Translations under genes and position numbers: made by a program | The notes under the pieces: generated by a model | Told to the model about the DNA's origin: nothing | The model's input: only the letters and a program-made list of their open reading frames with translations | Database searches by the model: none | Shown here: one piece after another, positions 16,008-20,712 of the stretch | How positions within the stretch are numbered: position 1 is the first letter of the stretch | Layout of the letters: every line of letters starts with the position of its first letter | Source: a virus | IMG/VR virus record: IMGVR_UViG_3300042556_000768 | Coordinates: 1-23,502 of that record | Length of the DNA stretch: 23,502 nt | Reading direction: 5' to 3' (one strand)

Positions 16008-16046
16008 AAGGCATAGCTAAAAGGCATTTTAAGGCACTTTTAAGGC
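16008..16046. repeat. AAGGC repeat cluster related to terS-terL gap
   Basis: AAGGC occurs at 16008, 16021, 16031 and 16042. The 12-base stretch at 16024-16035 recurs at 19330-19341 and the 11-base stretch at 16042-16052 recurs at 19396-19406, so the two intergenic regions share sequence in the same order. Confidence 0.6.
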
Positions 16047-16114
16047 TTAAATTTAGCTTATCTTATTTGGATAATATAAAGATATCAACCGCAAAGAAAG
16101 TGGCTAAAAACGGC

Positions 16115-18560: not shown

Positions 18561-18752
18561 ATGAAAGATACTTATGGTAAAAAGGATTACACGTGTAAAT
18601 GTGGTACTGTAACCGAAGGATACGTGTGGTTTAGTCAAGTAAAGGAAACTCAGTTTGAATGCACCAATTGTGGCAAGTGGTTAGGTTATGATAACCTGGA
18701 GAAGAAGGTTACTAGCATTATTTCAATACGCACACCAACAAAGAATAGATAA
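18561..18752 (+). CDS. Small zinc-ribbon protein
   Basis: The protein has 63 residues from the ATG at 18561. An earlier in-frame ATG at 18528 would overlap the preceding gene, and this start sits eight bases after its stop. A C-x-C (C12, C14) and C-x-x-C (C34, C37) set forms a zinc ribbon. Phage zinc ribbons in this place often precede terminase and can bind DNA or the HNH/terminase machinery; that is inference. Its stop is one base from the next ATG. Confidence 0.6.
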   Translation: MKDTYGKKDYTCKCGTVTEGYVWFSQVKETQFECTNCGKWLGYDNLEKKVTSIISIRTPTKNR

Positions 18753-18753
18753 T

Positions 18754-19311
18754 ATGAACGCACAATTCAAAGAAATAGCTAAAGAGGCTTTTATTATCGC
18801 CTATAAGGATAACTTTGGCAATATCACCATATCATGTGAGGCATCTGGAGTCGGTAGAACGCAGTATAAGACTTGGTTGAAGGATGATCCTGAGTTTGCT
18901 AAGAGATTAGCTGAAATCGAGCCTGAGGAGATAATGCTTGACTTTGGCGAACAAAAGCTAATGGAGAGGATTGCTAGGGGTGATACCTTAGCTACCATGT
19001 TCTTACTGAAGACTAGAGGCAAGAGAAGAGGATATATCGAAAAGACTGAGGTTGCTCACGAAGGAGATGTGGTTAAGCAAATTACAGTCAACGTAGTTAA
19101 ACCGAATCAAATTGAAGATATTATGAAACAGATAGACGGAGATGAGCACAAAGCGTTACCTGAAGGTGAGATAATCAACTTTGATACGCAAACAGAGCCA
19201 GGAATGGTCGTACCTGCTTACAAGGCAGGGGAAAGTGATGAAATCCCACTTTATAACCATGATAAAGGCGAATTATTAGATATTAATGAAGATGGTGAGT
19301 ATGAGGAGTAG
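18754..19311 (+). CDS. terS: Terminase small subunit
   Basis: The 185-residue protein has an N-terminal helix-turn-helix (about residues 22-43: GNITISCEASGVGRTQYKTW) followed by LKDDPEFAKRLAEIEPE and helices LMERIARGDTLATMFLLKTR, the pattern of TerS DNA-binding and oligomerisation parts. The ATG at 18754 is chosen over an ATG at 18688 that would lie in the zinc-ribbon gene. The C-terminal third is acidic (DINEDGEYEE). It should recognise the packaging site; a phased array lies just downstream. The gene is followed by the large subunit after 264 bases. Confidence 0.75.
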   Translation: MNAQFKEIAKEAFIIAYKDNFGNITISCEASGVGRTQYKTWLKDDPEFAKRLAEIEPEEIMLDFGEQKLMERIARGDTLATMFLLKTRGKRRGYIEKTEVAHEGDVVKQITVNVVKPNQIEDIMKQIDGDEHKALPEGEIINFDTQTEPGMVVPAYKAGESDEIPLYNHDKGELLDINEDGEYEE

Positions 19312-19575
19312 CTACAATGCCTCTATTTCGCATTTTAAGGCGATTTTACGGCTTTTAACCCTATGTGTAGTACTATGTGTCCACTTTGGAATTGAAAGGC
19401 TTAAATGGGGCTTAAAATAGCAAAGTGAAAAGATGAACTAAAACTCGTAGTGCCTCGTAGCACTCGTAGCATTCGTACTAACTACGACTACTACGAATAG
19501 TACGACCCCTACCTTTCTATAAAACCAAAAGTTTTCTATTAGTAAACTTTATACCTATTTTTTAAAATTTTTCCT
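19312..19575. promoter_or_regulatory. Noncoding terS-terL gap, packaging-site candidate
   Basis: This 264-base gap between the terminase genes is unusual, since these often overlap or abut. The left part shares GCATTTTAAGGC (19330-19341) and AAGGCTTAAAT (19396-19406) with the noncoding stretch at 16021-16052. The right part holds the phased TCGTA/TACGA array (19445-19505). It may hold the pac or cos site or a promoter for terL. Confidence 0.55.
19445..19505. repeat. Phased TCGTA/TACGA array
   Basis: TCGTA begins at 19445, 19455, 19464 and 19473 and its reverse complement TACGA at 19483, 19492 and 19501. The steps are 10, 9, 9, 10, 9, 9. The right-hand copies are also the inverted half: TCGTACTA (19473-19480) pairs with TAGTACGA (19498-19505). 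A protein with repeated DNA-binding units, such as a TerS ring, would be expected to favour such spacing. Confidence 0.75.
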
Positions 19576-20712
19576 ATGAACGTCACCACAAACGTAGTCT
19601 TCGAAATACTGCAAAACTCTACTAAGAGAATTTCCATCATGCAAGGAGGAACGAGATCAGGTAAGACATACAATGTACTTACATGGTTTATCGTAAAACT
19701 GCTTCAAGAGAAAGGAAAGACGCTGACAATATGTCGTAGCTCGTTACCATCCATCAAAGGTTCGGTAATGCGTGACTTTATTGAGATTTTGTCTAAGTAT
19801 GGGCTTTATAGCGAGGAGAAACACAATAAGACCGAAAACATCTACTTTTTGGGTGGGAATGTCGTAGAGTTCGTTTCTACTGACCAACCGCAGAAGATTA
19901 GAGGTCGAAAGCGTAATTATCTATTTATAAACGAGGCGAATGAGGTAAACTACGAATCTTGGATGCAGTTGTCCCTTCGTACAACCGAAAAGATAGTAAT
20001 TGACTATAACCCTTCCGATTACTACTCCTGGATTTACGATAAGGTTGTTCCGAGAGAAGATGCTGACTTTACGATTACGACTTACCTAGACAACCCTTTT
20101 TTAGAAAAAGGCATCATTGAGGAGATTGAGAGGCTTAAAGCAGCCGACCATGAATATTGGCGAGTTTATGGTTTAGGGGAGAGAGCAATATCTCAAGCGA
20201 CCATTTATACGCATTGGAAGCGTAGAAGGAACTTCCCTGATGGCGGAGATACGTTTTACGGACTTGACTTTGGATTTAACAACCAAACAGCCCTTGTTAG
20301 GGTCAAGAACTTTGATGGCGAGTTATTTGTCGACCAATTAATCTACGATACTAAAATGTCAACCGCTTTACTAATCGACAGGATGCGTTCTTTAGGGCTT
20401 GATAGGAACTCGGAGATATTTGCTGACCCTGCTGAACCAAAAACTATTGCGGAGGTGAATAAGGCAGGATTTAACTTGAAGAGTGCTGTGAAGGATGTTT
20501 ATGCAGGAATCAACAAGGTAAAATCATTTCCTTTGCATATCAGGTCGGAGTCTTTAGATTTGCTTGATGAGATTAAAAATTACAAGTGGAAGACCGATGC
20601 GGATGGCAATACACTTGATGAACCTGTGAAGTTTAGAGATCACTTAATGGACTCTATGAGGTATGCCATATACACAAAATATGCGAAACCTAAAAGAGGG
20701 TGGGTTGTATAG
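19576..20712 (+). CDS. terL: Terminase large subunit
   Basis: This 378-residue protein has the ATPase and nuclease domains. Walker A GGTRSGKT is at residues 24-31, Walker B YLFINEAN at 115-122, and the coupling motif DYNPSD at 143-148. The nuclease part has acidic residues at GLDFGF (D231), FADPAEP (D284) and DHLMDSMRY (D359). This is the PBSX/Terminase_3 kind. It is a bit shorter than typical TerL because the N-terminal extension is absent. It drives DNA into the prohead and cuts concatemers. Its leader is T- and A-rich. Confidence 0.95.
   Translation: MNVTTNVVFEILQNSTKRISIMQGGTRSGKTYNVLTWFIVKLLQEKGKTLTICRSSLPSIKGSVMRDFIEILSKYGLYSEEKHNKTENIYFLGGNVVEFVSTDQPQKIRGRKRNYLFINEANEVNYESWMQLSLRTTEKIVIDYNPSDYYSWIYDKVVPREDADFTITTYLDNPFLEKGIIEEIERLKAADHEYWRVYGLGERAISQATIYTHWKRRRNFPDGGDTFYGLDFGFNNQTALVRVKNFDGELFVDQLIYDTKMSTALLIDRMRSLGLDRNSEIFADPAEPKTIAEVNKAGFNLKSAVKDVYAGINKVKSFPLHIRSESLDLLDEIKNYKWKTDADGNTLDEPVKFRDHLMDSMRYAIYTKYAKPKRGWVV

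Follow-up and report, generated by a model that had tools for sequence, protein, structure and literature searches.

The locus and its repeat array

The window, by which we mean the whole stretch of 23,502 nucleotides that was analyzed, is an IMG/VR virus record. Its plus strand carries the terS-like gene, terL, portal, and head morphogenesis genes, and its minus strand a DnaB-type helicase gene and a DnaD/replication-initiation-like gene (Table 1). The terS-like gene probably starts at the ATG at 18754, which gives a protein of 185 aa matching relatives, and not at 18688; TerS of the relatives starts with MNAQFKEIAKEAF. No DNA similarity to known phages was found, and an Rfam search returned no match. 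The best phage TerL match to the window has 36% identity and belongs to Parabacteroides phages, and the TerL of a second lineage of array-carrying phages (lineage B, see below) is 53% identical to that of Flavobacterium phage 11b. Since these are the nearest TerL proteins, the array-carrying phages probably infect Bacteroidota.

Within the 264-base gap between the terS-like and terL open reading frames (19312-19575), four TCGTA pentamers (starting at 19445, 19455, 19464, and 19473) are followed by three TACGA pentamers (19483, 19492, and 19501), at steps of 10, 9, 9, 10, 9, and 9 bases. In all of this, the original prediction was accurate. The arrangement amounts to a 9-bp direct repeat that is inverted at a 5-bp centre (19478-19482), with one of the 10-bp steps outermost and the other at the turning point. 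Seven pentamers lie within 61 bases, whereas no 61-base stretch had more than three, either in 300 dinucleotide-shuffled versions of the window or in 2000 shuffles of the gap alone; the array is real and far beyond chance. Two further claims did not survive. The pentamers had been proposed to face one side of the helix, but a 9-base step turns each unit by about 50 degrees relative to the preceding one, so that the helical phasing fails and the array drifts by about 240 degrees overall. At 10.5 bp per turn the pentamer starts fall at 0, 343, 291, 240, 223, 171, and 120 degrees (resultant 0.26), i.e., the seven pentamers wind around the helix. The gap had also been called rare, but array-free relatives have terS-terL gaps of about 113 to more than 350 bases, which makes it ordinary in this lineage.

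Table 1. Features at the terminase locus of the window
Feature	Position	Strand	Remarks
terS-like gene	18754..19311	+	PHROG terminase small subunit, E 7.8e-6
Imperfect inverted repeat ATTTTAAGGC ... GGCTTAAAAT	19332..19418 (arms 19332-19358 and 19392-19418)	.	Upstream of the array
Iteron-like array, four TCGTA then three TACGA	19445..19505	.	Geometry shared with arrays of other phages and of Bacteroidota elements
terL gene	19576..20712	+	PHROG terminase large subunit, E 4e-41

Occurrence among phages

Near relatives were defined as the 81 sequences with TerL 90-100% identical (lineage A). The array was present in 16 of them and absent from the other 65, whose gaps hold alternative fillers. One carrier (L005) has a TerS that is 100% identical to that of a non-carrier (L018) and a TerL that is 100% identical to that of another non-carrier (L004), and no fixed amino-acid difference between carriers and non-carriers was found in the TerS and TerL compared. 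A search for a carrier-specific gene gave no convincing case, as the candidates overlapped the array or sat antisense to conserved genes. Because the array comes and goes while the terminase stays unchanged, this comparison of sequences indicates that it is an optional site and not an obligate pac/cos site. Among the carriers, the pentamer positions are invariant and five spacer positions vary, and one array is short by one whole 9-bp unit. Thus, the conserved spacing that was to be sought in relatives was found among the carriers, with length changing in whole units. Several genomes circularise via end repeats of 121-127 bp, a closure that gives no end position.

The inverted repeat upstream of the array is kept by near relatives, carriers and non-carriers alike, and has a partial copy at 16024-16048 (88% over 25 bases). 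No convincing conserved RNA fold was found for this block, which is a better candidate than the array for the phage's own cis-acting site. In L331-L408 the terS-terL gaps are pieced together from interchangeable inverted repeats, whose different half-sites include TGCATGAA, GTTCACG, GTCAAG, TGTCC, and others. The palindrome GTAAAGYTATNACTTGAC was considered as a second cassette shared between lineages and rejected, as it occurs widely and is not confined to terS|terL.

Nearly the same core was found in 12 of 78 sequences of lineage B, unrelated phages whose TerL differs and in which a DUF5681 protein takes the place of terS. In most non-carriers of this lineage, terS and terL abut without a gap (...TATAATG, junction TAATG), and in the carriers the array is a clean insertion exactly at the TAATG junction, with unit counts of 3+3, 3+4, or 3+5. 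A third set of arrays (lineage C) occurs in phages with a TerL about 90% identical to that of the window. The orientation of the centre relative to terL is identical in all three. The phage arrays are 50-70 bases long, and carriers of lineages A and B can occur together in one sample (3300042549, with L020 and L115). Most likely, the array was acquired at terS|terL by at least two unrelated phage lineages.

Arrays in replication modules of Bacteroidota elements

The geometry with the 5-bp centre was searched for in about 85,000 prokaryote species, with one genome per species. The matches lie on 29 contigs, all from Bacteroidota, and in 27 of those a gene for a DUF6371 protein adjoins the array, with an AAA_25 helicase gene on its opposite side in 25 of the 27; in the remaining two, the array is close to where the retrieved sequence stops. 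The arrays sit inside integrative elements. Family searches on L101 and L145 confirmed their integrase- and excisionase-like genes, which were recognized by eye in the others. According to Pfam, the AAA_25 ATPase has a helix-turn-helix at its C terminus; the DUF6371 proteins have a zinc ribbon and are primase-like. In two genome samples drawn around Flavobacterium lacus, DUF6371 was present in 26 of 201 genomes at the level of the family and in 41 of 297 at that of the phylum. A literature search on it turned up a single paper, which was unrelated. Repeats with other half-sites were seen by eye in the same gap at many of the DUF6371 loci of the census. Human fecal phage scaffolds show such repeats too, as does a Bacteroides fragilis element (CP103138.1) that carries a mobilization protein, cfxA, and a related module, and that appears Tn4555-like from its gene content. 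Some of these repeats are loosely periodic, and at some loci a clear array is missing. From its position and architecture, the array of the elements would most likely be best read as replication-origin iterons.

Two contigs may be mentioned here. L101, a 10-kb IMG/VR contig with a tyrosine integrase, the helicase, a TCGTA array, DUF6371, and a TerS-like gene (DUF5681), may be a phage satellite or else part of a prophage. At L143:2719, on the same 27-kb contig as L119 and about 12 kb away from it, there is a second TCGTA array, alongside which no helicase or DUF6371 gene was found. The idea that all DUF6371 elements are satellites with a TerS of their own was weakened, since most of those inspected have no recognisable terS and one is mobilizable.

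Within the DUF6371 census, TCGTA repeats were found in all eight elements whose helicase has a helix of the [ST]E[GSA]x[VI]R type and in none of the 18 others (Fisher 6e-7), the helix and repeat classes having been assigned by eye from the table. Among the TCGTA elements, an Asn following the Arg comes with A at the sixth base (9/9) and a Lys there with C (14/15; Fisher 8e-6), and both Fisher values ignore relatedness among the elements. With this covariation as the main evidence, the element array is most likely read by the helicase's own helix-turn-helix. Exceptions are L140, with TCGTA repeats but a different helix, and the marine phage L150, in which TCGTA-type repeats lie beside a helicase with another C-terminal domain. 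The spacers of the bacterial arrays show a weak overall excess of pairing across the centre (p 0.01-0.04) and none within the sixth-base classes A and C; the lack of covariation inside a class would favour double-stranded half-sites over a hairpin. The pairing of Asn or Lys with A or C offers a candidate recognition code for a widespread, little-described helicase-primase module. As a separate observation, the viral contigs L150 (11397-12611) and L151 have a primase gene, a helicase-like gene, and TGTCGTA repeats directly behind.

Role of the array in the phage

The original interpretation fared differently in its two parts. That the array is a site for a protein with repeated subunits is supported, as the same geometry covaries with the helicase-fused helix-turn-helix in bacterial elements. 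That the protein is the phage's own TerS, and the array its pac/cos site, we now regard as most improbable: the array adjoins terS and repeated sites would fit a TerS ring, but it is missing in most of the near relatives, some of them with identical TerS or TerL, TerS has no fixed difference between carriers and non-carriers, and the bacterial homologues lie in replication modules and not in terminase operons. It is also very unlikely that the array is a packaging site which the phage took over from a phage satellite, such that the satellite's TerS packages the phage. The location of the phage arrays at terS|terL and the TerS-like gene in some DUF6371 elements (DUF5681 in L101; L119:4161-4646, by eye) would agree with such a takeover, but most of the 20 elements inspected have no recognisable terS, the array tracks the helicase helix-turn-helix, and a mobilization protein is encoded by the B. 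fragilis element in which this module occurs.

Two other explanations do not involve packaging, and each is unlikely, if less so. The array might control terL, as an operator or an RNA hairpin that uncouples or represses TerL synthesis and is bound by a host or prophage regulator. Position and centre orientation are shared by unrelated lineages, the insertion parts terS from terL where the two abut in most lineage-B non-carriers, and the window array folds better as RNA than its shuffles (z -3.6); however, inverted repeats fold trivially, the bacterial-array spacers lack covariation across the centre within classes, and close relatives manage without the array. The array might instead be a neutral or selfish cassette, an interchangeable palindrome that accumulates in a hypervariable terS-terL gap with no benefit for the phage. 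Since the gap of the relatives is a patchwork of diverse palindromes, neutral accumulation is possible, and GTAAAGYTATNACTTGAC occurs in more than 120 viral contigs and in many contexts. What speaks against a neutral cassette is that the pentamers of the carriers are invariant, that array length changes by whole 9-bp units, and that both lineages have the array at terS|terL although lineage B had no prior gap there.

The reading that we prefer, tentatively and at a little below an even chance, is that the phage array is a captured iteron array of the AAA_25-DUF6371 type, to which the initiator of an element resident in the same cell binds. The source would be the iteron array between the AAA_25-helix-turn-helix gene and the DUF6371 gene of integrative elements, which at least two unrelated phage lineages would have taken up at the terS|terL junction. 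No DUF6371 was found in 14 phage records, and no matching helix-turn-helix or AAA_25 helicase in the searched phage genomes, several of which are fragments, making this a weak absence. Because the phages examined encode no such proteins, the array probably acts in trans, and its partner would be the initiator of a plasmid, integrative element, or satellite that shares the cell. It may then titrate that initiator as a decoy against a competitor, or the initiator may replicate the phage from the array as a captured origin.

Capture of an element's iterons is supported by the optional presence of the array with identical TerS or TerL, by its occurrence in unrelated lineages, by the element architecture, and by the covariation of helix-turn-helix and repeat. 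Against it, the phage-type sixth base G is matched by no bacterial element found: TCGTAG repeats were seen in none of the approximately 85,000 species with the 5-bp centre, and two samples of about 400 genomes, searched with looser centres, had none either. Also, the exact terS|terL placement in two lineages is left unexplained, as a decoy or captured origin could sit anywhere. The architecture shared by phage and element arrays is well supported by their sequences, and what the array does in the phage, including its binding and benefit, we infer from it. Rather than the start of the phage's own packaging, the array is probably a borrowed docking site whose source was a competing element. The broader proposal, that phages keep captured competitor origins at terS|terL as decoys or borrowed origins and thereby counter interference with a DNA site instead of a protein, is doubtful. 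Nothing on iteron capture by phages was found in the titles and abstracts of the literature. The shared DNA site links phage packaging operons to the replication modules of Bacteroidota elements, and cis-acting DNA may be a means by which phages combat competing elements or exploit them.

Compared with known systems, the phage array resembles the AAA_25-DUF6371 (PG0870-related) arrays in its TCGTA half-site, 9-bp period, inverted second half, and 5-bp centre, as well as in changing copy number by whole units. It differs in lying between terS and terL and not between the helicase and DUF6371 genes, in the lack of a cognate helicase or DUF6371 gene in the phages examined, and in a sixth base that is mostly G, whereas it is A or C in the elements. 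Like pac/cos sites, the array adjoins terminase genes, but unlike them it is optional among phages with identical TerS and has homologues in non-phage replication modules. A further parallel is the satellite PLE, whose RepA binds origin iterons (PMC7145576) and whose origin iterons are cut by the ICP1 nuclease Odn (PMC8263062). There too, an initiator reads the repeat arrays of an element, its DNA-binding domain covarying with the origin, and element origins are targets in the conflict between phage and element (PMC7145576, PMC8263062). PLE RepA, however, is a RepA_N and not an AAA_25-helix-turn-helix protein, and ICP1 encodes an anti-origin protein, whereas here the phage carries a DNA site.
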